Shown piece by piece: positions 6,211 through 25,896 of a stretch of DNA of 34,809 nt. Every line of letters begins with the position of its first letter. Position 1 is the stretch's first letter. Source of the stretch: Lachnospiraceae bacterium (lineage in GTDB: Bacteria; Bacillota; Clostridia; Lachnospirales; Lachnospiraceae); NCBI GenBank assembly GCA_017440575.1, contig JAFSGY010000024.1, positions 1 to 34,809 on the forward strand. Direction: 5' to 3'. The notes under the pieces were generated by a model that was not told the DNA's origin, ran no database searches, and worked only from the letters and a program-made list of their open reading frames with translations. The position numbers and the translations under genes are program-made.

Positions 6211-7131
6211 TTATTTATTTTTCTTCATTTCTTCTGCTACAACAGCTGCAAGAGCGATAGAGTAAAGCTTAGTCTCGCAGGAATCTGAACGGGAAGTTAA
6301 GATAACAGGAGCCTCTGTACCTGTTAAGATATTTCCGTTCTTTACTTCACACAAATGTGTTAAGGTCTTGTATACTAAGTTTCCGGCATGAATGTCAGGG
6401 AAGAGAAGAACATCTGCATCACCTGCAATCTTACGGTCTGTACCACCCTTATGAGTAGCAGCTTCTTCATCAATAGCCATATCCATGGAAAGTGGTCCAT
6501 CAACGATACAGCCGGTAATCTTGCCTTCGTCATTCATTTTTGCTAATTCAGCAGCTTCTACGGTACAAGGCATCTTAGGATTTACCACCTCAACAGCGGC
6601 AAGTGGAGCAACCTTAGGATTTGCAATACCGCATGCATGGCAAACCTTTACAGTATTGTCAATGATAGCAACCTTGTCCTCTAAGGTAGGGTATGTCATA
6701 AATGCAACGTCTGTTAAGAACAGAAGACGGTTTACTCCCTTTACCTCGAATACACATACATGAGATAATGGCTTACCGGTACGAAGACCAACTTCCTTAT
6801 CGAGAACACTCTTTAAGAAGTTCTTAGTGTCGATAAGTCCTTTCATATACATATCAGCTTCCCCATTATGTACAAGACTTACAGCCTTTAAAGCAGCCTG
6901 AACATCGTCAGTTTCATTTACGATTTCAAAGCCTTCTAAGCTCATATTGATAGAAGCAGCAACTTCCTTAATCTTTTCCTCATCACCAACTAAAATTGCA
7001 TCAGCGATTCCCTGTTCCTTTGCAGCCATAACAGCCTCTAATACAGGAGCATCCTGAGCAACAGCAACAGCAACCTTCTTCTTGCTGCATTCGGAAACTT
7101 TTTTCAGTAAATCATCAAATCCTTTGCTCAT
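6211..7131 (-). CDS. ptb: Phosphate butyryltransferase
   Basis: Transfers the butyryl group from butyryl-CoA to phosphate, feeding butyrate kinase. At 306 residues it has the usual length of the phosphate acetyl/butyryl transferase family. Recognisable blocks are [15 protein letters not shown] (about residues 40-54), [19 protein letters not shown] (about 100-118), [14 protein letters not shown] (about 136-149) and [19 protein letters not shown] (about 210-228). GAGGTG precedes the ATG on the minus strand. It is first in a ptb-buk operon. The presence of this pair suggests the strain can end butyrate synthesis by substrate-level phosphorylation. Whether butyryl-CoA:acetate CoA-transferase is also present cannot be told here. 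Confidence 0.95.
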
Positions 7132-7221
7132 TTGAACACCTCATCATCTTTAATAAAAATAGTAGTGTGTATGATTACTCACTTGTTAAAAGAATAACAC
7201 TTTGTGCGAGGAAGGTCAAGG

Positions 7222-7247
7222 GTAACTGGAGCGGAGTGAACATTAGC
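7222..7247. repeat. Copy 2 of the dispersed 26-bp imperfect palindrome
   Basis: GTAACTG-N12-CATTAGC, with the centre GAGCGGAGTGAA closely matching the copy at 28769-28794 (GGACGGAGTGAA). It lies in the intergenic region between the divergent ptb and membrane-protein genes. The arms are less well matched than in the other copies. Confidence 0.5.
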
Positions 7248-7274
7248 TGCCAAGGCAAGAGCGAAAAATTCGTG

Positions 7275-7303
7275 TTGTGAAAAGTAAAAAGGTAATCTAT
7301 AAT
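7275..7303 (+). promoter_or_regulatory. Predicted sigma-A promoter of the membrane-protein gene
   Basis: TTGTGA (7275-7280) and TATAAT (7298-7303) are separated by exactly 17 bp, with the start codon 39 bp downstream of the -10 box. Confidence 0.6.
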
Positions 7304-7342
7304 GAGTCCTAAATCAGAATAAAATAAAAAAGGGGTAAAAAC

Positions 7343-9025
7343 ATGCTGACAGTTCTTTTCAATTGGCTTTATATCTTTATTACAACGTTGAGCTTAGGCT
7401 ATGCGTTTTCGAAATGTATCGAGAAAAAACTTCATTATAGAATAAAACGGTTGTACAACCTTGCAGCGGTTGGATTAGTAATTGCTACGGTATATGCACA
7501 GGTTTTCAGCATATTTTATAAGGTGGGACTTGTGGCAAATCTGTTGCTGATTATTAGCTGTATAGGAAGTATTGTGCTGTACAGACAGCAGATGAAAGCA
7601 GACATTGAAAAATATGGTAAGAAACTTTTTTCGATAAAAGGTGTCGTTATTGTGGCGCTTGTACTGCTTTGGGCATATTTTACATCGCGTGGAATCATTC
7701 ATTATGATACTGATTTGTACCACGCACAGAGCATTCGCTGGATAGAGGAATATGGAGTGGTTCCGGGGCTTGGCAATCTGCATGTGCGTTTTGCATATAA
7801 CAGCTCTGTATTTGCATTATCTGCTTTGTATAGCATGAAGTTTCTGCTTGGACAGTCACTTCATACCATCAGCGGCTTTTTTGCATTGCTTCTTAGTATT
7901 AGTGCTATGGATATTATGGGAAGTTGGCAGGAAAAAAGATTTCGGCTTTCTGACTTTGCACGAATTGCAGCTATATATTATCTAACCATGATATGTGATG
8001 AGGTGGTATCTCCAGCATCCGATTATGTGATTATGTGTACCATATTTTATCTCGTGATTGAGTGGCTTACGGTTTTGGAAGCATCCAAGGAAAAGAGCGA
8101 AAGTATTGTGCCGTATGCGCTTCTTTGTGTCGGTGGAGTCTTTGCCGTGTCTTTGAAGCTGACAGCAGGATTAATTCTTATTTTAGTGATAAAACCGGCA
8201 TATATGCTGATAAGAGAAAAGAGATGGAAAGAAATTTTACTTTACATAAGCATTGGATTGATAGTGATTACACCGTGGATTGTGCGTACCGTTTTGATTT
8301 CAGGTTATCTTCTTTATCCATTTCCGTCACTTGACTTGTTTGATGTGGACTGGAAGATTCCAACGGCGGCAGCTACACTGGATGCGGCAGAGATTAAGAC
8401 ATGGGGACGGGCGATTTATGATGCATCCAAGGTAGGTATGCCGATACAGGAATGGTTTCCGAACTGGTTTTCAACCACGCTTTCGGGAACGGAAAAGCTT
8501 TTGATTCTGGCCGATATAGTGACACTTTTCGTGCTTGTAGTCATAGCTGCCTGGCAGATTAGCAGAAAAAAGTGGAGAGAACTTGATTTTCTTCTTGTCA
8601 TGGCAGCAGTCGCAGCCTCTTACCTGTTCTGGCAGATAAGTGCACCACTTATGCGATATGGATATTCTCATGTATTGTTGTTAGTCGCGCTGACAGCCGG
8701 GTATCTGTTGCAACGATTTATGATAAAGAGAAAAAGGATTTGTCAAGTATTTTATGCTTTGGTGCTTGTGATAGGTATTGCAAAGCTTGTTCCATTATAT
8801 TCTTACGCAGTGAGTGTTGGGGGACAGTCGTTTTATCTGACACAGAAAGATTATGGAAAGTATGAGAGTGTTTCATATAAAATAGAAGGAGTGACCTTTT
8901 ATTATCCGGTAGAAGGAGATAGAATTGGATATGAGGCATTTCCTTCAGCAACTACAAAGGTTGATATAGAGTTTCGTGGAAAGAGCATAGAAGAGGGATT
9001 TAGGTTACAAAATCTTAACTTTTAA
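7343..9025 (+). CDS. Polytopic membrane protein, possibly GT-C/PMT-like (resembles LIC_10190-type proteins)
   Basis: A 560-residue integral membrane protein. Strongly hydrophobic segments fall near residues 5-25, 33-52, 57-74 and 95-113, with many more to about residue 480, followed by a soluble C-terminal tail. A conserved-looking loop after the fourth segment reads HYDTDLYHAQSIRWIEEY and continues with VPGLGNLHVRFAYNSS. An acidic and aromatic first extracytoplasmic loop of this kind is typical of GT-C glycosyltransferases and of the uncharacterised LIC_10190-type membrane proteins. This suggests, without proving, a lipid-linked sugar transferase role at the envelope. GGGG lies 9 bp before the ATG. 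It has its own promoter and ends at a terminator, so it is monocistronic. No substrate can be proposed. Confidence 0.65.
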   Translation: MLTVLFNWLYIFITTLSLGYAFSKCIEKKLHYRIKRLYNLAAVGLVIATVYAQVFSIFYKVGLVANLLLIISCIGSIVLYRQQMKADIEKYGKKLFSIKGVVIVALVLLWAYFTSRGIIHYDTDLYHAQSIRWIEEYGVVPGLGNLHVRFAYNSSVFALSALYSMKFLLGQSLHTISGFFALLLSISAMDIMGSWQEKRFRLSDFARIAAIYYLTMICDEVVSPASDYVIMCTIFYLVIEWLTVLEASKEKSESIVPYALLCVGGVFAVSLKLTAGLILILVIKPAYMLIREKRWKEILLYISIGLIVITPWIVRTVLISGYLLYPFPSLDLFDVDWKIPTAAATLDAAEIKTWGRAIYDASKVGMPIQEWFPNWFSTTLSGTEKLLILADIVTLFVLVVIAAWQISRKKWRELDFLLVMAAVAASYLFWQISAPLMRYGYSHVLLLVALTAGYLLQRFMIKRKRICQVFYALVLVIGIAKLVPLYSYAVSVGGQSFYLTQKDYGKYESVSYKIEGVTFYYPVEGDRIGYEAFPSATTKVDIEFRGKSIEEGFRLQNLNF

Positions 9026-9041
9026 AACGTTGAATTTATAT

Positions 9042-9074
9042 ACTAAATCTGTTACAATATGATTTAGTTTTTTT
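9042..9074 (+). terminator. Intrinsic terminator after the membrane-protein gene
   Basis: ACTAAATC (9042-9049) pairs with GATTTAGT (9061-9068), followed by a run of T. It lies between the membrane-protein stop and secA. Confidence 0.75.
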
Positions 9075-9145
9075 AAAGATGTTATGTAACTGTGTGATTT
9101 ATAAGAATCTTACAGACAAAAAGCTTTAAAGGATTGGAGTCAAAA

Positions 9146-11710
9146 ATGGGTATTATCAATAAAATGTTCGGCACACATAGCGAACGTGAGTTAAAAAGAA
9201 TTGAACCAATAGTAAAGAAAATAGAAGGCTATCGTGATGCAATGGGACAGCTCTCTGATGAAGAGCTTCGTGGGAAGACAGAAGAATTCAAGAAGCGTCT
9301 AGCAGACGGAGAAACGCTTGACCAGCTGTTACCGGAAGCGTATGCAGTAGTAAGAGAAGCGGCAAAGCGTGTAATGAATCAGGAACATTACCGTGTACAG
9401 TTAGTCGGTGGTGTTATTCTTCATCAAGGACGTATTGCGGAGATGAAAACAGGTGAAGGTAAGACGCAGACAGCTCTTTTACCTGCATATCTGAATGCCT
9501 TGGAGGGAAAGGGTGTACATGTTGTAACAGTTAACGATTATCTTGCAAAACGAGATGCTGATTGGATGGGACAGGTACACAGATTTTTAGGACTTACAGT
9601 AGGTGTTGTTCTGAACAGCATGACACCGCAGGAACGTCAGGAAGCATATGGCTGTGATATTACTTATGTAACCAATAATGAGCTTGGTTTTGATTACTTA
9701 AGAGATAACATGGTTATCTATAAGGAACAGCTTGTATTAAGAGATTTGAACTTTGCGATTATCGACGAGGTTGACTCAGTATTAGTTGACGAGGCAAGAA
9801 CACCGTTGATTATTTCAGGACAGAGTGGAAAGTCAACCAGATTATATGAAGTGTGTGATATTCTTGCAAGACAGATGAAACGTGGTGATGACGTAGAAGA
9901 CATGTCTAAGTTAGACATTATCATGGGTATCGTGCAGGAAGAAAATGGTGACTTTGTTGTTAACGAGAAGGATAAGGTAATCAATCTTACAGCAGAAGGT
10001 GTGGCAAAGGTAGAGAAGTTCTTCCAGATTGAGAACCTTGCAGACCCTGAAAACCTTGAGATTCAGCACAATATCATCCTTGCACTTCGTGCGCATAATC
10101 TGATGTTCCGCGATAAGGACTATGTGGTAAAAGACGATCAGGTTATGATTGTTGATGAATTTACCGGTCGTATTATGCCGGGACGTCGTTATTCTGATGG
10201 TTTGCATCAGGCAATCGAGGCAAAGGAAAAGGTAAAGGTTAAGCGTGAGAGCAAGACACTTGCTAATATTACCTTCCAGAACTTCTTCAACAAATATAAG
10301 AAGAAGGCAGGTATGACTGGTACAGCGCTTACAGAAGAGAAGGAATTCCGTGATATCTATGGAATGGACGTTGTAGAAGTTCCGACCAACCGTCCTGTGG
10401 CAAGAATCGATATGCAGGATAGTGTATATAAGACTAGAAAAGAAAAGTTAAAGGCAATTGTAGATGCTGTAGAAGCTGCACATGCCAAGGGACAGCCTGT
10501 ACTGGTAGGTACGATTACCATTGAAGCATCTGAAGAATTAAGTGGTATGCTGAAGAAGAGAGGTATTCAGCATAAGGTATTGAATGCAAAGTTCCACGAA
10601 CTGGAAGCAGAAATCGTTGCAGATGCAGGACAGCATGGTGCAGTAACCATCGCTACCAACATGGCTGGTCGAGGTACCGATATCAAGCTTGATGAGGAAG
10701 CAAGAGCAGCAGGCGGTTTAATGATTATCGGTACAGAAAGACATGAGTCAAGACGTATTGATAACCAGTTAAGAGGTCGTTCAGGTCGTCAGGGTGACCC
10801 TGGTGTATCTAAGTTCTATATTTCTTTGGAAGATGACCTTATGCGTTTATTCGGTTCTGAGCGTCTGATTAATATGTTCAATACACTTGGTATTCCGGAA
10901 GGACAGGAAATTGAGCATAAGATGCTGACAACTGCCATTGAAAATGCGCAGAAGAAGATAGAGAACAATAACTTTGGTATCAGAAAGAACCTGTTAGAGT
11001 ACGATCAGGTTATGAATGAACAAAGAGAAATTATCTATGAAGAGCGTCGACGTGTATTAAATGGAGAAAGTATGCGTGATGCAATTTACAAGATGATTAC
11101 AGATCTTGTAGAAAATGCAGTAGATACTGCTATAAATGATGATTTGGAGCCGGAAGAGTGGGATTTAAAGGAATTGAATTCTCTTCTGTTGCCAACGATT
11201 CCAATTATGCCGGTTGCATTAAGTAGAATCAACAAGAAGACTAAGAATGGCTTAAAGCATCAGCTCAAGGAAGAAGCAGTTAAGCTTTATGAGAGCAAGG
11301 AAGCAGAGTTCCCTGAACCGGAATCCATTCGTGAGATTGAACGTGTCATTCTTTTGAAGGTAATTGATAGAAAGTGGATGGATCACATTGACGATATGGA
11401 TCAGTTACGTCAGGGTATTGGTCTTCAGGCATATGCGCAGAAGAACCCATTAATCGAGTATAAGATGAGCGGTTATGATATGTTTGATGCCATGACATCG
11501 AATATCAAGGAAGATACCGTAAGACTTCTGCTTCGTGTTAGAGTAGAGCAGAGGGTAGAAAGAGAGGAGGTTGCCAAGGTAACCGGTACTAACAAGGATG
11601 ATTCTGCCAAGGCTCCAGTTGTCAAAAAAGAGACTAAGGTATATCCAAATGATCCTTGTCCATGTGGAAGTGGCAAGAAATATAAGCAGTGCTGCGGACG
11701 CAATTCGTAA
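9146..11710 (+). CDS. secA: Preprotein translocase ATPase SecA
   Basis: The motor ATPase that drives unfolded preproteins through SecYEG. I start it at ATG 9146 (854 residues) because GGAG lies 6 bp upstream; the TTG at 9134 overlaps that ribosome binding site. Visible features are the N-terminal SecA signature, Walker [17 protein letters not shown] (around residue 103), the [19 protein letters not shown] Walker B region (around residues 205-225), the second nucleotide-binding fold with [13 protein letters not shown] and [17 protein letters not shown], and a C-terminal SEC-C zinc motif [17 protein letters not shown] that contacts SecB-like partners or ribosomes. The length is typical for a Clostridia housekeeping SecA, not an accessory SecA2. 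Terminators lie on both sides, so it is probably monocistronic. Confidence 0.98.
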
Positions 11711-16684: not shown

Positions 16685-16697
16685 TGAAGGTTTTATG

Positions 16698-16722
16698 GAG
16701 GCATCCGAGAGGGTGCCTCTTT
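16698..16722 (+). terminator. Weak intrinsic terminator after tex
   Basis: GAGGCATCC pairs with GGGTGCCTC with wobble and a four-base loop, followed by only three T. It is a plausible but weak terminator 14 bp after the stop. Confidence 0.55.
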
Positions 16723-16807
16723 GCATAAGCGAATTAGAGCAAAGAGGAATACAGCTTATAAACAGTCAGATATGCATTTGGAATAGAAAGGGAGTACAGT
16801 ACTACAA

Positions 16808-17419
16808 ATGAAGGAAACAGAATGGGATAAAAAGCTGAAAATACAAACAACAGGACATGATGATTACAGGGCAGACCAATACCATTTTCCATACGAACCC
16901 ACACCATATTCTGTACTGGAACGATTGGTAGAGAGTGGTTATATAAATGCAAAGAATATTTTGGTAGATTATGGCTGTGGAAAAGGCAGAGTCGGGTTCT
17001 ATCTAAACTATATAATTGGTTGTAACACAATCGGTATCGAATGCGATAAGCGGATATGCGATGTCGCATGGCAGAACCAAAAGACATATGCAGGAAAGAA
17101 AAATGTGGAAATTCTATGTATGAATGCAGAAGCGTATGAGATAGAAAACGCAGACTGTTTTTATTTTTTTAATCCCTTTTCCATAGAGATACTGCGGTCA
17201 GTAATCGGACAAATCATGACTTCTTATTATGAAAAACCAAGACAAATAAGACTGTTTTTCTATTATCCGAACGATGAGTATGTAGCCTATCTAATGAGTG
17301 CACAGGATTTAACTTATATAGATGAGATAGATTGCAGGGATTTGTTTGATGGGAATAATGAAAGAGAGAGAATTATGGTGTTTGAGGTGTCTTTTTGTAA
17401 GCAGATGAAGAATGACTAG
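16808..17419 (+). CDS. Class I SAM-dependent methyltransferase, substrate unknown
   Basis: A 203-residue protein with a Rossmann-type SAM-binding motif I VDYGCGKGRVGFYLN (from Asp54), an acidic motif II end TIGIECDK, and a motif IV-like FYFFNPFS (Asn122-Pro-Phe). The NPF replaces the NPPY of adenine-N6 or glutamine-N5 enzymes, so nucleic acid or protein amide methylation is not implied. No target-recognition domain is visible. It lies at the left end of the accessory island, 123 bp after tex, with AAGGGAG unusually far (about 14 bp) before the ATG. The substrate cannot be proposed. Confidence 0.75.
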   Translation: MKETEWDKKLKIQTTGHDDYRADQYHFPYEPTPYSVLERLVESGYINAKNILVDYGCGKGRVGFYLNYIIGCNTIGIECDKRICDVAWQNQKTYAGKKNVEILCMNAEAYEIENADCFYFFNPFSIEILRSVIGQIMTSYYEKPRQIRLFFYYPNDEYVAYLMSAQDLTYIDEIDCRDLFDGNNERERIMVFEVSFCKQMKND

Positions 17420-17426
17420 AAAAAGG

Positions 17427-17455
17427 TTGTGTAATCTTTTAGATTTGAGTATACT
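17427..17455 (+). promoter_or_regulatory. Predicted promoter and palindromic operator of the toxin-antitoxin-like pair
   Basis: TTGTGT (17427-17432) and TATACT (17450-17455) are 17 bp apart. Within the spacer lies the palindrome AATCT-TTT-AGATT (17433-17445), a position where an autoregulating antitoxin could block polymerase. The regulatory role is inference. Confidence 0.45.
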
Positions 17456-17495
17456 AAAATATATTTAAAGATTTCTCATGTGAGGAGATGATTTG

Positions 17496-17675
17496 ATGTG
17501 TGATGTAAAAAAATATGATGAGATATATCAAGAAATTCTTAAATTACAGCCGGATGATACACTACAATTAATGTTAGAGGCTAAGACAGATGAGGAAAGA
17601 GAATTCTATGAAGTAGTGGGTAATTTTTTGCTACAAATAAAACAGAGACAGGTAATTGCGAGGAAATTGTTCTAG
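17496..17675 (+). CDS. Small protein, putative antitoxin partner of the zeta-like kinase
   Basis: A 59-residue acidic-then-basic helical protein. I start it at ATG 17496, with GAGGAG 8 bp upstream. It ends with TAG whose last base is the first base of the GTG start of the next gene, so translation of the two is almost certainly coupled. The sequence shows an N-terminal YDEIYQEILKLQPDDTLQ stretch and a C-terminal helix FYEVVGNFLLQIKQRQVIAR. I do not see a DNA-binding motif. Position and size match the small companions found directly upstream of zeta-type kinases, so an antitoxin or inhibitor role is inferred from context alone. Confidence 0.6.
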   Translation: MCDVKKYDEIYQEILKLQPDDTLQLMLEAKTDEEREFYEVVGNFLLQIKQRQVIARKLF

Positions 17676-18235
17676 TGAAGAAATACATTTTGATTGCAGG
17701 AGTGAATGGAGCAGGAAAGTCAACTTTATATCAAACTAATTCGGGATTACAAGGAATACCAAGGGTAAATACAGATGAAATACTGCGAGAATTTGGTGAT
17801 TGGAAAAATATCAATGATGTATTTAAAGCTGGAACAATTGCACTTAAAAAAATTACGCAGTATTTTTTGGAAGGAATAACCTTTAATCAAGAAACTACTT
17901 TATGTGGCAATGCTGTAGTGAAATACATTCAAAAAGCAAAAGAGGCAGGTTATCTTATAGAAATACATTATGTTGGAGTTGATTCTGTAGAAATTGCGAA
18001 AGAACGTGTTAGACAACGTGTTCTTGATGGAGGACATGGAATTGACGAAAGTGATATAGAAAGACGATATTATGAATCGTTTAAGCAAATGAATAAGATT
18101 CTCAAAGAATGTGATTTGGTTGTATTTTATGATAATACGGAAGACTTTCGGCGCTTTGCTTTTTTCCAAAGAGGAGAAGTAAGGCTTTTATCAAGGAATA
18201 TACCGAAATGGTTTGAGGAATATATAGAATACTAA
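17675..18235 (+). CDS. Zeta toxin-like P-loop kinase
   Basis: A 186-residue P-loop protein resembling the zeta toxin/COG4185 group. Characterised zeta toxins phosphorylate UDP-N-acetyl sugars and block cell-wall synthesis. Walker A is GVNGAGKST at residues 9-17. VNTDEILREFGDW follows at about residues 30-42, matching the substrate-binding Asp region, and NQETTLCG contains a conserved-looking Glu73. The segment ERVRQRVLDGGHGIDESDIERR near residues 110-131 matches the Arg-rich lid of this kinase family. The start is GTG overlapping the upstream stop codon by one base (TAGTG). Many chromosomal members have not been shown to be toxic, so toxicity is uncertain; the kinase fold is clear. Confidence 0.75.
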   Translation: MKKYILIAGVNGAGKSTLYQTNSGLQGIPRVNTDEILREFGDWKNINDVFKAGTIALKKITQYFLEGITFNQETTLCGNAVVKYIQKAKEAGYLIEIHYVGVDSVEIAKERVRQRVLDGGHGIDESDIERRYYESFKQMNKILKECDLVVFYDNTEDFRRFAFFQRGEVRLLSRNIPKWFEEYIEY

Positions 18236-18236
18236 G

Positions 18237-18265
18237 GCGTCAGCTTCTTTTTTTGGAGCTGACGT
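18237..18265 (+). terminator. Hairpin after the zeta-like kinase gene
   Basis: GCGTCAGCT pairs with AGCTGACGT around a T-rich loop, immediately after the stop codon. The downstream T tract is poor, so termination may be partial. Confidence 0.5.
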
Positions 18266-18290
18266 CGTATATTTTATATTGAAAAAGAAC

Positions 18291-18380
18291 ATGAATATCT
18301 GGAATAATGTCTTTGAAGAGCTGGTATATGATGAATCGGAGTTAAAGGTAAATTATTATAATATGTTGCCACAAAAGTAA
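18291..18380 (+). other. Short unassigned ORF, possible gene remnant
   Basis: A 29-codon ATG-to-TAA frame encodes an acidic, codon-usage-plausible peptide beginning MNIWNNVFEEL and ending in MLPQK. There is no ribosome binding site ahead of it, so it may be the tail of a lost gene. Weak support. Confidence 0.25.
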
Positions 18381-18500
18381 GAGGTTGTATAAGGATTAGT
18401 TTGAGCGGAGCAGAGTAGTTATGTACTTTTGTATGAGGAATTGTAAGAATTAGCATAGTTAGATTTTGATATAAAACAAATGTGGATAGGAGCGAGGAAA

Positions 18501-19259
18501 ATGGATAAAGTCAATTTTTACACGAATAGAATTAATACGGAAGATGGAATTATTGATTTGCAAGTTGCGGAAAATATGTGTAATACTTTTTTATATCCGG
18601 AATTTTTGTTGAGTAATTATTCTAAAATTTCTGATATTATAGATGATGAAATAGAAAATGTATTAGATGTAGGATGTGGTGCGGGACCATTTGGAGTGTT
18701 TTTTGCAAGACGAGGAAAAAAAGTAGTAGCTATTGATATTAATCCAATAGCTATAGAGTGTTGTAAAGAAAATGTAAAGCGGTATGAATTGCAAAATTTT
18801 ATGGAAGTAAAAAGAGCAGGAATAGAAGAGTACGAGTGCAAAAAGCGGTTTGATATGATTGTCTGTAATCCACCATATGGAGATAATTCTTATATGAGAA
18901 AAGAACTATCAAAAGATATAAAAAACATTCTACAAAAAATTAGTAACGATATATTTGATGCAGAAGTAGAGGATTATCTGACAAACTGTTGGAAAGATAG
19001 TTTGGGAAGAGATATGATGGATTATATTTTTGCGAGGGCAAAAGAACTACTTGATTCTAATGGAAAAATATTGGTAGTTTGTGGAAATGATTTTATTGAT
19101 AGTAAACAGTATATGATAAATAAAGCAGATAAGTTTGATTGTATATCCTTGATTTATCATGATAGTGTAAAGAAGGATGTATGCATAAAAGATGGAAATA
19201 TGATTTATAGAGGGAAAAAGATTTTTAATATATTGGTTTTTAAATATATTGGTTTTTAA
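18501..19259 (+). CDS. Class I methyltransferase with NPPY motif, substrate unknown
   Basis: A 252-residue protein. I start it at ATG 18501 because GGAGCGAGG lies immediately before it; the ATG at 18480 has no such site. The SAM-binding motif is VLDVGCGAGPFGVFFARRG (Asp56), the second acidic motif is VVAIDIN, and motif IV is IVCNPPYGD (Asn123). NPPY is typical of enzymes that methylate amide or exocyclic amino nitrogens, such as HemK/PrmC and TrmN6-like methyltransferases. A C-terminal part of about 110 residues (LTNCWKDSLGRDMMDYIFARA onwards) is not familiar to me. The gene is AT-rich compared with the flanking housekeeping genes. It ends 159 bp before the peptide gene and is on the same strand, but the promoter at 19361 suggests a separate unit. 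Confidence 0.72.
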   Translation: MDKVNFYTNRINTEDGIIDLQVAENMCNTFLYPEFLLSNYSKISDIIDDEIENVLDVGCGAGPFGVFFARRGKKVVAIDINPIAIECCKENVKRYELQNFMEVKRAGIEEYECKKRFDMIVCNPPYGDNSYMRKELSKDIKNILQKISNDIFDAEVEDYLTNCWKDSLGRDMMDYIFARAKELLDSNGKILVVCGNDFIDSKQYMINKADKFDCISLIYHDSVKKDVCIKDGNMIYRGKKIFNILVFKYIGF

Positions 19260-19311
19260 ATATATTTAACAAACTTTATATATATAATTACAAAAAGAGG
19301 AGCTATTGAGG

Positions 19312-19364
19312 TTGAAATGGTTGAGATATTGCAAAACATAAAGCTGATAGTTTGAAATGATTGA
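19312..19364 (+). repeat. 13-bp direct repeat upstream of and overlapping the peptide-gene promoter
   Basis: TTGAAATGGTTGA (19312-19324) and TTGAAATGATTGA (19352-19364) differ at one position and lie exactly 40 bp apart. The second copy overlaps the -35 box. This is a plausible regulator-binding arrangement. Confidence 0.6.
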
Positions 19365-19389
19365 CGAAAAGCTATGCACATGGTATAAT
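19361..19389 (+). promoter_or_regulatory. Strong predicted promoter of the peptide gene
   Basis: TTGACG (19361-19366) and a consensus TATAAT (19384-19389) are separated by exactly 17 bp. The peptide start codon lies 28 bp downstream of the -10 box. Confidence 0.75.
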
Positions 19390-19417
19390 TTTTTTATTAA
19401 ATAAGGAGGTATTTTTT

Positions 19418-19516
19418 ATGAAGATAAAATTAACATGGAAGATAAAGAAAAGCAACGTTAACATGGGAAGGGGAATTCCTTGTTTTTCTGGTTGCAAAGT
19501 TCAAAAGAATGGCTAG
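19418..19516 (+). CDS. Small basic Cys-X3-Cys peptide, candidate RiPP precursor
   Basis: A 32-residue peptide too short for most gene finders. Evidence that it is real: a consensus promoter, a full AAGGAGGT ribosome binding site 7 bp before the ATG, and a terminator 26 bp after the TAG. The next gene is a radical SAM/SPASM enzyme with an N-terminal peptide-recognition-like domain. The N-terminal half is lysine-rich with a single Trp7 (TWKIKK), as in a leader. The C-terminal half contains GRGIPCFSGCK, with Cys22 and Cys26, Ser24 and Gly25 as candidate modification sites, and ends in Asn-Gly. There is no GG leader cleavage motif and no signal peptide. By position it would be the substrate of the downstream maturase; the chemistry (thioether, C-C or epimerisation) is not determinable. 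I do not recognise the peptide family. Confidence 0.72.
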   Translation: MKIKLTWKIKKSNVNMGRGIPCFSGCKVQKNG

Positions 19517-19541
19517 TGGTTTTGCATTGAGGTGAAATTTT

Positions 19542-19568
19542 AAATAGACCGTATTGCGGTCTATTTTT
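19542..19568 (+). terminator. Intrinsic terminator/attenuator between the peptide gene and its maturase
   Basis: AAATAGACCG (19542-19551) pairs perfectly with CGGTCTATTT (19557-19566) and runs into T's. No separate promoter is evident before the maturase gene, so partial readthrough would give abundant peptide mRNA and little enzyme mRNA. Confidence 0.8.
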
Positions 19569-19655
19569 TGTTTCAGCATACTGTAATAATAGAACGATAA
19601 AATAATAATGGTACTTTTCAAGTATATGAAGATTTGTACATTTATGGGGGTCAGT

Positions 19656-21005
19656 ATGAATACTAAGTATGAGGAAGAAAAAGAAGTAGAGATAGACGAA
19701 AATAAAATATATAAAATGCCGGATTATATAATAAAAAGTTATAATAAAAAATATTTAGTTATTGTTCCAGATACAGGAATTTGGATCGTATTAAATACAG
19801 ATGAGGAGCTTAAAATTTTTGACTTTTTAGCAAATGGGAATAGCATTAAAGATGCTCTTTTGAAGTTTGATGAAGAAGATGTTATTAATGTATTAGTACA
19901 GATTGAAGCGAAAGGTTTTATAGATTTACAAACAGAGAATATTGATAATGCAGAAACAATGCAAATATATTTAACAAATGCCTGTAATTTAAGATGTAAA
20001 CATTGCTATATGTATGCAGACAATTCATTTGAAAATGAATTAACGTATGATGAAATAATTGAAGTTTGTAAGATGTTTAAATTGACGGGAGGAAAGTATG
20101 TAACTTTAACAGGGGGAGAAGTGTCAGTTAGAAGAGATTTTCCACAGTTATTAAGAGGTATAAATGCTGTGGGATTAGGAATACACATTCTTAGTAATGG
20201 AGTATCGTGGGATGATGAATTGATAGATCTTGTTGCAGCAATAGATGTTGAACGAGTTCAGATTAGCTTAGATGGATTTGATGAAATTACAAATGCAGAG
20301 GTAAGGGGCAAAGGGTGTTTCGAAAAGGCGTTGACTACAATAGATAAACTTGTAAAAAAAAATGTAAATGTATATTTGGCTGTAACACCGTTATATGATA
20401 TTATTCTAAAAAATAAAAAAGGATATATTGAATTTGCCAAAAATTTAGTGGAAAAGTATAAGGAATACAATTTTTTGATAAATTTTAGCTTTGAATTGAT
20501 TGAAGGAAGAGACATATCTAATACAGACATAATAAAGTATAATAAACAATATATGAAAATAATGGGAGAAATATGTGAAGCAGTTTATCCAGGGTCAGAA
20601 TTAGAAAGTTTTGTAATAAATCATAAAGATAGAAAAATATTTAATAATTGTGGATATGGGAGAATAAATATTTCTTCGACAGGAGATGTTTATTTTTGCT
20701 CACGGGTGACAGAAATAAAAAAATACGGAAATATTCGAAAAGATTCTTTCGACAGAATAAAAGAAATCATGAGTAGAGTGCGAGAACTTGCAGATGTGAC
20801 GAATTTACAACCTTGTAAAGAATGTGAGTTAAAATACATTTGTGGTGGAGGTTGTAGAGTAGATCATTTTAGAGAATTGAGTCAAATAGAAGATATTTTT
20901 GATGAGAATGCAATGTGTAATATTAAAGCTAGAAAATGTGATCAATATAATAAAGAATATTTGTATCAAATGATGATTGATTCGAATGAAAGGCTTTACG
21001 GGTAG
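19656..21005 (+). CDS. PqqD-like/radical SAM/SPASM peptide maturase
   Basis: A 449-residue enzyme. I start it at ATG 19656, with GGGGG 5 bp upstream; the upstream ATG 19608 lacks a site and would add 16 unrelated residues. Residues about 15-95 resemble a PqqD-like RiPP recognition element (IVPDTGIWIVLN, then IFDFLANGNSIKDALLKF). The radical SAM motif is CNLRCKHCYMY (Cys110, Cys114, Cys117, binding the SAM-cleaving 4Fe-4S cluster), followed by LTGGEVSVRRDF. The C-terminal SPASM domain holds auxiliary-cluster cysteines: Cys332, Cys348, Cys387, Cys390, Cys396, Cys400 (CKECELKYICGGGCR), Cys421 and Cys428. This build is characteristic of enzymes that cross-link or otherwise modify ribosomal peptides. 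The small peptide gene just upstream is the obvious candidate substrate. The gene is very AT-rich (a sampled 60-base line has 17 G/C). Confidence 0.88.
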   Translation: MNTKYEEEKEVEIDENKIYKMPDYIIKSYNKKYLVIVPDTGIWIVLNTDEELKIFDFLANGNSIKDALLKFDEEDVINVLVQIEAKGFIDLQTENIDNAETMQIYLTNACNLRCKHCYMYADNSFENELTYDEIIEVCKMFKLTGGKYVTLTGGEVSVRRDFPQLLRGINAVGLGIHILSNGVSWDDELIDLVAAIDVERVQISLDGFDEITNAEVRGKGCFEKALTTIDKLVKKNVNVYLAVTPLYDIILKNKKGYIEFAKNLVEKYKEYNFLINFSFELIEGRDISNTDIIKYNKQYMKIMGEICEAVYPGSELESFVINHKDRKIFNNCGYGRINISSTGDVYFCSRVTEIKKYGNIRKDSFDRIKEIMSRVRELADVTNLQPCKECELKYICGGGCRVDHFRELSQIEDIFDENAMCNIKARKCDQYNKEYLYQMMIDSNERLYG

Positions 21006-21010
21006 GTAGT

Positions 21011-23446
21011 ATGGATGATCTGATATTTGTATTTAATGCAAAGGAATCTAGGAAGAATGGTATAATTATAATAGAAACATATTTATGCAATAATAAGTTT
21101 AATAAAAAAAAGAAATATATAGGAGGTATTGTAAAGAAAATCAACATATTAGATAGATTAGAAGTGGATAATTTTACGAGAGAAGAATTCAATAATATAC
21201 AAAATGAATTTTGTAAAGTTGCCTATAATGTATCTTCATTTCAATATATAATAAAAACTTTTGAGTTTTGTAATTTGTTGCTGCATTATGGTAATAAAAA
21301 TATTTTCTATTTTCAGACATATAAACAAGATATGCATTTAATATGCAATTATACAATGATGGAAAAGTATCAAGAAAAAAAGAATGATATTTTGTGTAAT
21401 ATATTAGGGCATAATATTTGGTATGTAAGTAAAAAGAGTGAATTATATTTGATTTCAAATGGTACAGAAGAAAAGAAGATATTAGATGTAGTTCCAGTTG
21501 CGAAAGTTATTATTTATGATGACGAGTTCAAGTTAGTGTTTGAATATGCAGGAGTAGAAGTGGATTATTCATCGTCGGCTACTTTATTTGAATATGGTGA
21601 GGAAATTATTGCTAGACAATATAGCTTGGAAAGGGAGCAAGAGAATAAACTTGTTTCATTGGGATTTAAAAAGAAAAAGGGAAATATATATATAACAACA
21701 TTAGAAGTTGATGTGGAAGATATTTTAGTTGAAAAAGGTTTTAATATAGAGCATTTTTATGCGGAACGACAAAAAAATAATCAACTTAGTATAGAAATTA
21801 ATCAATCAGGGAATGATTGGTTTGATTTGAAAGTTTATTATAAATATAACAATGAAACAATAGAACTAGGGAAAAGGATTGATTTGTTTGCAAAAAAAAC
21901 ATCAGTTATGGTTGGAACTGATAGAATAAACATACCATTTAGCATTATAGAGAATGCTGAGAAAATAATTAAAGACGAGGAAGGATTAAAAATCCCTAAG
22001 AAGAATATATGGACATTATTGCGAATAGCCGAAGAAAATAATATAGATGTAAATCACTTTTTAACATATAATACTGTAGAAATCAAATTTGATAATTTAA
22101 TTGAAGGTCGATTATTTGATTATCAACGTACAGGTGTTAGATGGCTAAAATGGTTATACATTAATAAAATTGGAGGGTGTTTAGCTGATGATATGGGAGT
22201 GGGAAAAACGATCCAAACAATTGCTTTTTTATGTGAAAACGAAATACAAAAGCAAATTAAACATGTATTAATTATTGTGCCGTATGTTTTATTGACTAAT
22301 TGGGTAAGAGAATTTGAAAAGTTTTCAAATGAAAATAAAATAGTTATTTATCATGGAGGAGCACGAGAAGAACTCCTTTATACAGATAATATAATTTTTA
22401 TTACTACTTATGCTACAGCTGCAAGTGATATAGCTATACTGTCGGAATTTTTATATGATGTGGTGATATTTGATGAAATACAATATATAAAGAATAATTC
22501 TTCCAAGACATATAATGCATTAAGTAAAATAAATGCAAGGTGTCGAATTGGATTATCAGGTACTCCGTTTGAAAATAGAATTGATGAATTGTGGAATGTT
22601 TTAAGTATACTTAATCCGGATATGCTTATTGGTAAAAAGAATTTTATAAAACGATATGTTAATGATAACTCTATGGAATTGCATAAATTATTAGCTCCTT
22701 TTATTCTTCGCCGAACAAAAGAAGAAGTGCTGGATGAGTTACCGGAAAAAACGGAAGAGATAATTTTCTGCGATTTCAGTGAAAAACAGAAAAAGTTATA
22801 TGATGCAATAAAGATAGCAGTTAAAAATAGTATGTGTAATTATTCAATAGTGAATAATGCAACAATATTAAAAGGGTTGCTATTATTAAGGCAAGTATGT
22901 TGTCATCCGTTATTACTCCCAAAGGAAGTGAATGTTGAAAATATTCATGAATCCTGTAAATTTGAAGTAATGAAAATAAAGGTTTCAGAAATTATTGCTA
23001 ATAGGAATAAAGTAGTTATATTTAGCCAATTTACAAGCATGTTAAATTTGATAAAAGAATGGTGTGAAATGGAAAAATATAAGTATTTTTATATTGATGG
23101 ACAAACAACAAGAAGGCAGAAAGAGATAGATGCATTTGAAAAGGCAAATGAAGGGGTTTTTCTTATTAGTTTGAAAGCAGGAGGAGTAGGATTAAATTTG
23201 ACAAGTGCACATTATGCTATTATTTTTGAACCTTGGTGGAATCCTTTTGCTGAACAACAAGCGGAAGATAGAATATTTAGAATTGGTCAGAAACAAGATG
23301 TAATTATATATAAAATGATAGTTACCAATAGTATTGAAGAGAAAATATTAAATTTACAAAATTCAAAAAAAGAATTGTTTGAATCTGTAATGAATGGTAT
23401 TCCATATGAAAGATTAAATATGCAAGAGTTAATCGAACTGCTATAG
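21011..23446 (+). CDS. SNF2-family helicase-like ATPase linked to the radical SAM operon
   Basis: An 811-residue protein starting 5 bp after the maturase stop, so almost certainly co-transcribed. The C-terminal half is a complete SNF2 motor: the Q-motif-like FDYQRTGVRWLKWL, Walker A LADDMGVGKTIQT (about residues 392-404), Walker B/DExx FDEIQYIKN (about 486-494), motif III LSGTPFENRIDELWN, motif V LISLKAGGVGLNLTSA, and motif VI QQAEDRIFRIGQKQDV (about 747-762). The N-terminal 370 residues resemble the beta-rich region found before the motor in bacterial SNF2 proteins, without a zinc-finger SWIM cluster or nuclease domain. SNF2 motors translocate on double-stranded DNA. Why one accompanies a peptide maturase is unclear: it could be regulatory, a defence component or the target/immunity factor. 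Confidence 0.88.
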   Translation: MDDLIFVFNAKESRKNGIIIIETYLCNNKFNKKKKYIGGIVKKINILDRLEVDNFTREEFNNIQNEFCKVAYNVSSFQYIIKTFEFCNLLLHYGNKNIFYFQTYKQDMHLICNYTMMEKYQEKKNDILCNILGHNIWYVSKKSELYLISNGTEEKKILDVVPVAKVIIYDDEFKLVFEYAGVEVDYSSSATLFEYGEEIIARQYSLEREQENKLVSLGFKKKKGNIYITTLEVDVEDILVEKGFNIEHFYAERQKNNQLSIEINQSGNDWFDLKVYYKYNNETIELGKRIDLFAKKTSVMVGTDRINIPFSIIENAEKIIKDEEGLKIPKKNIWTLLRIAEENNIDVNHFLTYNTVEIKFDNLIEGRLFDYQRTGVRWLKWLYINKIGGCLADDMGVGKTIQTIAFLCENEIQKQIKHVLIIVPYVLLTNWVREFEKFSNENKIVIYHGGAREELLYTDNIIFITTYATAASDIAILSEFLYDVVIFDEIQYIKNNSSKTYNALSKINARCRIGLSGTPFENRIDELWNVLSILNPDMLIGKKNFIKRYVNDNSMELHKLLAPFILRRTKEEVLDELPEKTEEIIFCDFSEKQKKLYDAIKIAVKNSMCNYSIVNNATILKGLLLLRQVCCHPLLLPKEVNVENIHESCKFEVMKIKVSEIIANRNKVVIFSQFTSMLNLIKEWCEMEKYKYFYIDGQTTRRQKEIDAFEKANEGVFLISLKAGGVGLNLTSAHYAIIFEPWWNPFAEQQAEDRIFRIGQKQDVIIYKMIVTNSIEEKILNLQNSKKELFESVMNGIPYERLNMQELIELL

Positions 23447-23970
23447 GGGACACAAAAGTGAAATTTGGATAAAAATAGAAGCATAAGATAAAAAAGAAAA
23501 TATTCAAAAACACAATGAAATGCAAAAAATGAATTTGTTTCTAAAGTAAAAACTAATTTGGAATGTTGTGTCTAAAGATAGTGTGATTTGTGTGAAGGAA
23601 TACATATAAAAGAAAAAATATAAGGGACTTATGATGTAAATAAAGACGAGTTATTGGGGGCATATGTGATTTTGTATGTGATTTACAGTCAAGAAATTGA
23701 TAAGAAATAATTCTAAGGGGAATAATTGTTCTGATATTGATAATTGATTATGATACAAGGTACATTTTCATTTCATTATTTCAGCAGAAAAAGAGATTGT
23801 AACATACAAAAATAGCAAAGGAAAGCTTTTAGGAGAGATAAATTGTGATTTTGACCTTATATAGTTTGAAGAGTTGTGTATGTAAAATTATAAATATTGT
23901 ATGTCGGTAATGAATAATTGCACTTGCATAATCCCTTATATAGAGTTATAATAAATCGAAATAAAATAAG
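23447..23970. other. AT-rich intergenic region, apparently decayed (about 520 bp)
   Basis: No intact gene is seen. One fragment at about 23754-23848 reads as coding (AEKEIVTYKNSKGKLLGEI within it) but has no start or ribosome binding site and ends at TAG, so it may be a remnant. The 3' end carries the promoter of the riboswitch-controlled ribU transcript. No clear terminator for the SNF2 gene is visible near its stop. Confidence 0.5.
23924..23952 (+). promoter_or_regulatory. Predicted sigma-A promoter of the FMN-riboswitch/ribU transcript
   Basis: TTGCAT (23924-23929) and TATAAT (23947-23952) are 17 bp apart, about 20 bp before the riboswitch begins. Confidence 0.7.
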
Positions 23971-25118: not shown

Positions 25119-25173
25119 GCCAAAGTAAACTAGTAGAGAGCAAATAATTGTTTACAGAATGAGGGGTATCGTT

Positions 25174-25896
25174 ATGGAAAACACATTGATAGAAATCAGC
25201 GATATGTGTAAAATTTACAATCCGGGCGAAAACGAAGTACGTGCTCTTGATGGTGTGGATTTATGTATTAGTGAAAATGAATTCGTAGCTATTATAGGGC
25301 ATTCCGGTTCCGGTAAGTCAACCCTGATGAATATGCTAGGCTGTCTGGATGTTCCAACCAGTGGTAAGTATTTATTACATAATCAGGATGTATCGGACTT
25401 GGAAGATGATGAATTGTCGGATGTACGAAACCGGGAAATTGGTTTTATTTTTCAGGGCTTTAATCTGATTCAGAACATGACAGCCTTTGAAAATGTAGAA
25501 TTGCCACTAATTTATCGAGGAGTAGGAAAAAGAGAGAGAACAAAACTTTCCTTACGTTCATTGGAAAAGGTTGGACTGGCACATCGAATGGATCATAAGC
25601 CTGCGCAGATGTCAGGCGGACAGCAGCAGCGAGTTGCCATTGCCAGAGCCATTGCACAGGCACCGCCTATTATTCTTGCGGATGAGCCGACAGGTAATCT
25701 TGACTCGAATTCTACCAAGGAGATTATGCAGATATTACGGGAGCTGCATAAGGAAGGAAGAACGGTCATAATCATTACACATGACAATGAGATTGCTGAA
25801 CAGGCAGACAGGGTCATTCGAATCAGTGATGGCAAGATTGTAGAGGACACGAATAAGGTAAGGGAAAATGAGGAGGAGAATTATGAAAAAGCGTAA
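25174..25896 (+). CDS. ABC transporter ATPase (MacB/LolD-type)
   Basis: The 240-residue nucleotide-binding subunit of a MacAB/FtsX-class exporter. I start it at ATG 25174 because GAGGGG lies 7 bp upstream; ATG 25159 overlaps that site. Walker A is GHSGSGKST (from Gly42), followed by [14 protein letters not shown]-loop [21 protein letters not shown], signature [15 protein letters not shown] (from Met146), Walker [14 protein letters not shown], and the H-loop THDNEIAE. These motifs are those of the MJ0796/LolCDE group. Its 3' end overlaps the start of the adaptor gene by 14 bases, so translation is coupled. In Clostridia such systems often export antimicrobial peptides or lipophilic compounds; the substrate is unknown. 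Confidence 0.93.

Follow-up and report, generated by a model that had tools for sequence, protein, structure and literature searches.

Introduction

Peptides modified by radical S-adenosylmethionine (SAM) enzymes are known mainly as antibiotics, signals and redox cofactors. We analysed a stretch of 34,809 nucleotides (nt) from a Lachnospiraceae bacterium (assembly GCA_017440575.1, contig JAFSGY010000024.1; hereafter the window), in which a short cysteine-bearing peptide, a radical SAM/SPASM maturase and an SNF2-family ATPase are encoded in a row. An initial annotation had marked this set as an undescribed locus for a ribosomally synthesized and post-translationally modified peptide (RiPP). It is a conserved RiPP-type cassette with an unusual DNA-motor partner, nameless in the family libraries scanned.

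The sactipeptide maturases SkfB and StsB/GggB, of the SKF and streptosactin systems, share with the window enzyme the succession of a RiPP recognition element (RRE), a radical SAM domain and a SPASM domain, SkfB being its nearest fold and StsB its best family model. The cassette is nevertheless unlike these systems, in that the StsB model scores 112 bits against a cut-off of 625, a DNA motor stands alongside and the core is different. From the CteB system it departs by its SNF2 and M42 aminopeptidase partners and by its precursor. The pyrroloquinoline quinone (PQQ) and mycofactocin pathways resemble it in combining a short conserved core with a radical SAM/SPASM enzyme and, as in many cassettes, a peptidase. 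Their precursors, however, carry Val-Tyr or Glu-Tyr pairs, and the models of the mycofactocin maturase (106 bits, cut-off 265) and of PqqE (61 bits, cut-off 381) set the window enzyme apart. The defence proteins DpdE, ZorD and DrmD have the SNF2 ATPase core in common with the cassette protein; they differ in where the matches begin and in their partner proteins, as detailed below.

Streptosactin/SKF-type systems likewise use a short cysteine-bearing precursor, and CteB is a ranthipeptide-type maturase, according to PMC8172795 and PMC10352776, respectively. For the vWA-MoxR/FtsH conflict systems, PMC7159879 proposes a stand-alone peptide effector that goes with a radical SAM protein. The cassette resembles that proposal in that a radical SAM enzyme would produce an effector peptide, and differs in that no vWA, MoxR or FtsH was found among the window neighbours scanned. 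Since the proximity of RiPP clusters to defence genes has also been noted (PMC12715929), the general idea has precedent.

Genes of the cassette

The peptide gene (19418–19516, forward strand, as are all cassette features below) encodes 32 residues, MKIKLTWKIKKSNVNMGRGIPCFSGCKVQKNG, with the motif LTW at residues 5–7 of the leader and a core, C22-F-S-G-C26, in which two cysteines flank FSG. A ribosome binding site, AAGGAGG (19403–19409), was read from the sequence and ends 8 nt 5′ of the ATG. It is preceded by a promoter-like site, TTGACG-17-TATAAT (19361–19389), with 11 of 12 consensus matches and TG ahead of the −10 element. The number of promoter-like sites in the 401 bases scanned, four, is ordinary compared with a shuffle mean of 2.5 (standard deviation 1.8); it is only by its quality that the site at 19361–19389 stands out. 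An intrinsic terminator or attenuator (19542–19576; stem 19542–19566, 11 pairs, T-rich tail) occupies the gap between peptide and maturase, where one was found versus 0.1 expected, with a fold z of −4.1. The promoter, ribosome binding site, small open reading frame (ORF) and terminator of the initial annotation were thus all confirmed, at 19361–19576. The peptide had zero NCBIfam matches.

The maturase gene (19608–21005) encodes a Radical_SAM domain (96.8 bits, Pfam) and a SPASM domain (26.4 bits), and seven cysteines of the SPASM part were invariant in a 12-row alignment (C348, C364, C403, C406, C412, C416 and C444). An alternative start at 19656, after GGGGG, gives 449 residues, closer to the length of most relatives, and is possibly the true one. 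In the predicted structure, residues 41–101 form a b-b-b-a-a-a domain with pLDDT above 90; the structural alignment with CteB begins at residue 38, and the nearest fold was that of SkfB. No Pfam model, PqqD included, matched this part, so that the leader-binding, RRE-type domain is predicted from its fold, whereas the SPASM part, announced together with it by the initial annotation, was recognised by Pfam. Among 25 of the 63 NCBIfam matches, those listed, none exceeded its cut-off: StsB came first (111.8 bits, cut-off 625) and the mycofactocin maturase second (105.8 bits, cut-off 265), and PqqE reached 60.7 bits (cut-off 381). Assignment to the StsB family or to the mycofactocin or PQQ enzymes was therefore rejected.

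The SNF2 gene (21011–23446) starts 5 nt past the maturase stop, as had been annotated. Its product has a motor core at about residues 355–790, with both ATPase lobes present (SNF2-rel_dom 209 bits, Helicase_C 63 bits, Pfam), and its fold predicts a DNA motor; residues 1–134 are without a confident model. None of all 10 NCBIfam matches was above its cut-off. The top PADLOC scores were those of DpdE (382 bits, beginning at residue 358) and ZorD (353 bits, from residue 261), and no model of the Dpd, Zorya or DISARM partner proteins matched among the seven window neighbours scanned.

A rare family in three phyla

A maturase search of 98 genomes, including the window's own, returned the own copy and then nothing above 78 bits. 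On a plasmid of Treponema saccharophilum, a maturase 36% identical over 448 residues is followed by an SNF2 protein 41% identical over 691. A two-row profile of these two loci found genome G200 at 315 bits (next match, 108 bits), and a three-row profile, run against one genome per species for 84,980 species, found at least 11 loci at E ≤ 1e-59; the next match, among those listed, had an E of 2e-29. Members from G755, G907, G1132, G1111 and G1793 were added from further genome samples.

The member set comprises at least 18 maturase loci, 12 with SNF2 (the window, L047, the Treponema locus L049/L026, L053, L054, L055, L056, L057, L059, L145, L172 and L173) and six without (L048, L050, L051, L052, L144 and L174). 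Excluded from the counts were L146–L151 (140–190 bits, no window-like SNF2) and L175 (214 bits); L027, on an Agathobacter plasmid, was dropped, its annotation having no SNF2. In L175 (genome G1747, reverse complement 6541–10745), a methyltransferase-like gene comes after the distant maturase, and then the gene of an ABC protein which we take to be UvrA-like, another pairing of a radical SAM enzyme with a DNA ATPase.

The family is rare. Of 397 genomes in the window's family, 2 had matches above 300 bits, and of 246 in its order, 2 had matches above 450 bits; the figures were 4 of 348 for its phylum, 2 of 393 for the order of L054, 1 of 297 for the phylum of L059, and 3 of 175, one at just 214 bits, for the order of Treponema. 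Every count takes in its centre genome, and the groups overlap. Viral contigs yielded no relative, either with the window maturase or with the three-row alignment, and a plasmid and phage search with the peptide of one relative found nothing. Two of the three matches from a further search for viral or plasmid carriage were attributed to chance.

Conservation of the peptide

In the 1,000 nt before the start of the maturase gene, an ORF of 20–75 residues containing C[FY]xxC was found in 16 of the 18 members (all except the Treponema locus L049 and L048), versus 0 of 69 controls. At 520 nt, 15 members remained, L172 dropping out by its far-back start, again versus 0 of 69. The controls were non-member maturase loci from the 84,980-species scan, eight of which had less than 520 nt of upstream sequence. 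The initial annotation would have been contradicted by related maturases lacking a conserved small ORF, or by a peptide that changed freely between loci; instead, a precursor-like gene adjoins the maturase and is conserved with it, as in radical SAM RiPP loci.

In the SNF2-linked loci, the peptides encoded upstream of the maturase end in RGIPCFSGCKVQKNG (window), RINTMYCFKSCEKNQN (L047), RINTMYCFKSCERNQN (L172), RVSSMFCFKHCEKNQN (L053), RINAMYCFKSCERNQN (L057), RVAAMYCFKSCSANQN (L145), RVNAMYCFKSCSANQN (L173), RVGAMYCFKHCDVNQN (L054), RVGAMYCFKRCDVNQN (L056), RVGAMYCFKNCSVNSN (L055) and RIGHGYCFKNCEKNQN (L059). Their common core is C[FY]xxC, and MYCFKxCxxNQN describes the C-terminal end in 7 of the 11. 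A leader tryptophan is present in all but L055, mostly with Thr or Ser just before it and a hydrophobic residue before that. A similar peptide is kept in five of the six SNF2-less loci, where C[FY]xxC lies in different surroundings: GCFTRCCTNVDWGGEY (L144), GCFFSCCTHVNRGTDY (L050), GCYTKCEVNVDYGADY (L051, with M replacing T in L052) and GCYTQCCDYTDHGNTWYK (L174). In codon comparisons of five peptide pairs, third positions differed most (14, 13, 17, 21 and 17 of 32); the excess was clear in four pairs, first positions being nearly equal (18) for L145 and L047. When ten relatives' peptides were compared with NCBIfam at E up to 1, the only match was FliE (0.09), on the ORF of L048, and was taken as chance.

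An orphan homologue of the peptide, ending in ITLKWQVIKVKDRARASAMYCFKICDKNQN and followed by a terminator-like hairpin, was seen on an IMG/VR contig (L195, reverse complement 145–219). It has a GTG start or no clear start, with 180 nt of sequence upstream. The genes just after it are, we presume, those of a phage scaffold and capsid, and no maturase, SNF2 or M42 match was found on this 11.8 kb phage contig. The homologue may be a decoy, a remnant or a cargo gene.

Gene order and joint inheritance

The order peptide, hairpin, maturase, SNF2 was observed in 11 of the 12 SNF2-linked loci, Treponema being the exception, and the three-gene order, whose recurrence the initial annotation had proposed to look for, is present in Bacillota, Bacteroidota and Thermodesulfobacteriota. 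All nine loci tested have a hairpin between peptide and maturase, with no more than 4 of 200 shuffles reaching so low an energy (the L047 stretch tested extends into the maturase ORF); a stem was also seen there in L172 and L173. Such a hairpin may be a common device for producing precursor in abundance and enzyme sparingly. In 7 of the 12, an M42 aminopeptidase gene ends 25–144 nt before the peptide, with Pfam scores of 166–297 bits in four of the seven cases. By tblastn, no M42 was found in the other five SNF2-linked or in the six SNF2-less loci, L051 and L052 having less than 1 kb of upstream sequence. The fuller cassette is thus M42, peptide, hairpin, maturase and SNF2. In the window genome, which is 78% complete, the sole M42 match was partial (27 bits).

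In the maturase tree, the 18 members fell on one side of a branch (support 97/91), versus seven outside maturases. The SNF2-less members nest among the SNF2-linked ones, with three changes on the tree and moderate supports, so that SNF2 has perhaps been lost or replaced in them. The SNF2 tree repeats most of the maturase groupings, and the distances of the two proteins are correlated (r = 0.889; p 0.0001, the lowest value possible with 9,999 permutations); the pair was therefore inherited together. In a search of 12 genomes, 9 of 10 cassette SNF2 proteins matched that of the window ahead of residue 300, and three non-cassette SNF2 proteins matched only from about residue 362, in the motor. In the Lachnospira locus L057, the SNF2 gene is split into overlapping ORFs (7265–8095 and 8019–9764), which is a frameshift or an assembly error.

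Genomic setting

In the window, the cassette and three other genes lie on a 7.3 kb insert (16685–23969) between a Tex-like S1-domain gene and a flavin mononucleotide (FMN) riboswitch. GC content is 26–33% from 17 to 24 kb, versus 36–44% elsewhere. Third-position GC is 0.20–0.21 in the SNF2, maturase and zeta-like genes and in gene 18480. The Tex-like and ABC genes have 0.39, the first insert gene (16808) has 0.36 and the energy-coupling factor (ECF) gene has 0.35. In two genomes of the same genus (L188 in G008, L190 in G001), about 70 nt separate the Tex-like gene from the riboswitch region, against 7.3 kb in the window; of the 18 same-genus ECF loci examined, only these two reach the Tex-like gene, the other 16 being uninformative. 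The best explanation is that the window genome acquired the cassette on an insert. In Treponema saccharophilum it is located on a plasmid, and near the cassette of L173 lies what we take to be an integrase gene.

The three other insert genes, from a domain scan, encode a methyltransferase with an NPPY motif (18480–19259), a zeta-toxin/AAA-like protein (17675–18235) and a second methyltransferase-like protein (16808–17419). Beyond the insert, the riboswitch (RF00050, 23970–24100, 121 bits) precedes the gene of an ECF transporter S-component, which is therefore probably a riboflavin transporter. A Pfam scan of the insert found no transporter and no recognisable immunity gene, so that the dedicated exporter and immunity gene of an ordinary bacteriocin cluster were not recognised on it. 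An ABC gene (25159–25896) was rejected as exporter: it belongs to the host, is found at 87% identity in G008, a genome without the insert, and adjoins the ECF gene in 8 of the 18 loci. The rejection covers this gene alone and does not extend to the HlyD and permease genes. The statement that transporter, protease and immunity protein are lacking was thus borne out for the window insert, and failed for the protease in the family at large, given the M42 genes.

Large RdrB-like (RADAR) proteins, each adjoined by a small gene, are encoded beside two Bacteroidales cassettes (L054, 9557–12199; L056, 1501–4158). Other neighbours of defence type are AbiEii (L059), FRG (Treponema), an M.Eco57I C-terminus (L047), a weak SIR2 match (L056) and, by Pfam and with nothing in PADLOC, McrBC (L053). 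All of these are hand-picked proteins. Over all cassette neighbours there was no clear excess of defence genes compared with controls, and a defence island is therefore not claimed as proof of function.

Discussion

The locus remains undescribed as far as was searched: no NCBIfam family covers the peptides scanned, and no description of the SNF2-linked cassette was found in the open literature, including the accessible parts of PMC12715929, PMC10352776, PMC8326336, PMC8172795, PMC10853773 and PMC7159879, subscription papers lying mostly outside the search.

The explanation that we favour, and hold reasonably likely, is a RiPP cassette whose product acts inside the cell together with the DNA motor. 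The comparisons establish the conservation of peptide core, maturase and SNF2 across distant bacteria, their order, the predicted folds and the joint inheritance of the enzyme pair; the steps that follow are proposals. By analogy with RRE-bearing radical SAM/SPASM maturases (SkfB, StsB, CteB, SuiB), the leader, which in most members bears a hydrophobic-[TS]-Trp motif, would dock on the RRE-like domain, and the maturase, using SAM and auxiliary clusters, would link the cysteines of the core with residues close by. It is very probable that the maturase has the peptide as its substrate; a thioether bond, of the sactipeptide or ranthipeptide kind, is the most likely chemistry and has a little better than an even chance. 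In streptosactin, one reported bond runs from a cysteine to the third residue after it (Cys31-Gly34, PMC8172795); in the MYCFKxCxxNQN peptides the third residue after the second cysteine is Asn. The leader would then be trimmed up to the cross-link by the M42 aminopeptidase or, in cassettes that lack one, by a peptidase of the host. The small mature peptide would stay unexported and, by analogy with known SNF2 motors, would bind or serve the translocase where it works on double-stranded DNA, perhaps to counter DNA that invades the cell. Whether SNF2 uses the mature product is an evenly balanced matter, and a role of the cassette in defence is a tentative suggestion. Still bolder, and rather unlikely as a whole, is a horizontally spread intracellular system, probably directed against foreign DNA, in which the motor carries or senses the matured C[FY]xxC peptide on DNA and the RiPP has a role other than that of a secreted antibiotic or a redox cofactor.

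Several observations weigh against this explanation. Six related maturases have no adjoining SNF2 and nest among the linked ones, so that the peptide can do without it; L048 lacks the motif, and the window peptide itself lacks the usual FKxC..NQN letters. In Treponema, the candidate peptides are downstream and differently shaped: two ORFs rich in cysteine, with LTWNV close to their starts, 3′ of SNF2 and a methyltransferase (L026, 11768–12722). The tenth cassette SNF2, of L055, matches that of the window only from residue 364, in the motor core, and the SNF2 of L059 groups with three non-cassette proteins. Five of the 12 SNF2-linked cassettes have no M42 neighbour. Defence models were matched at 1e-15, among the matches listed, by up to 9 of 68 neighbours versus up to 8 of 93 controls, counted by model name with generic ABC matches excluded on both sides. 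Finally, we infer the modification of the peptide by analogy, and its chemistry is a prediction.

The mature peptide could instead attack DNA or a DNA enzyme, the SNF2 protein protecting its producer by removing or repairing the damage. This would suit a protein that is a DNA motor by its predicted fold, and the row of maturase, methyltransferase and presumed UvrA-like ABC protein in the distant relative L175. However, the window insert has no exporter by Pfam, the nearby ABC gene being the host's, weapons do not usually have a conserved core, and the SNF2-less members would stand unprotected; we consider this improbable.

We give little credence to a redox-cofactor pathway of the PQQ or mycofactocin type, in which the peptide would be the precursor and SNF2 a regulator or passenger. 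The short conserved core, the aminopeptidase adjoining in 7 of 12 and the second rank of the mycofactocin maturase among the NCBIfam matches listed would agree with it, whereas that score is well under its cut-off and two cysteines stand in place of the Val-Tyr or Glu-Tyr pairs. The same slight chance is given to an ordinary sactipeptide bacteriocin that a transporter of the host would export, SNF2 being a chance neighbour. The resemblance of the maturase to sactipeptide maturases speaks for it; yet 12 of the 18 members have SNF2 next to the maturase, the distances of the two proteins agree, the core is conserved across phyla, and the window insert bears neither transporter nor recognisable immunity gene. 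That the small ORF is an attenuation leader of the maturase-SNF2 operon, the maturase acting elsewhere, is highly improbable: ORF and hairpin do precede the enzymes in the 11 of 11 upstream cases examined, but the C-terminal amino acids are conserved while third codon positions vary, C[FY]xxC is kept in SNF2-less relatives, and the maturase has an RRE-like domain, as predicted, and the fold of a RiPP maturase.

With its conserved core, its small set of genes and its presence in named strains (Oribacterium sp. C9, Treponema saccharophilum and Desulfamplus magnetovallimortis), the family is directly testable. That the partner is frequently a DNA motor, and that no exporter was found on the insert of the window, points to a new intracellular job for radical SAM peptides.

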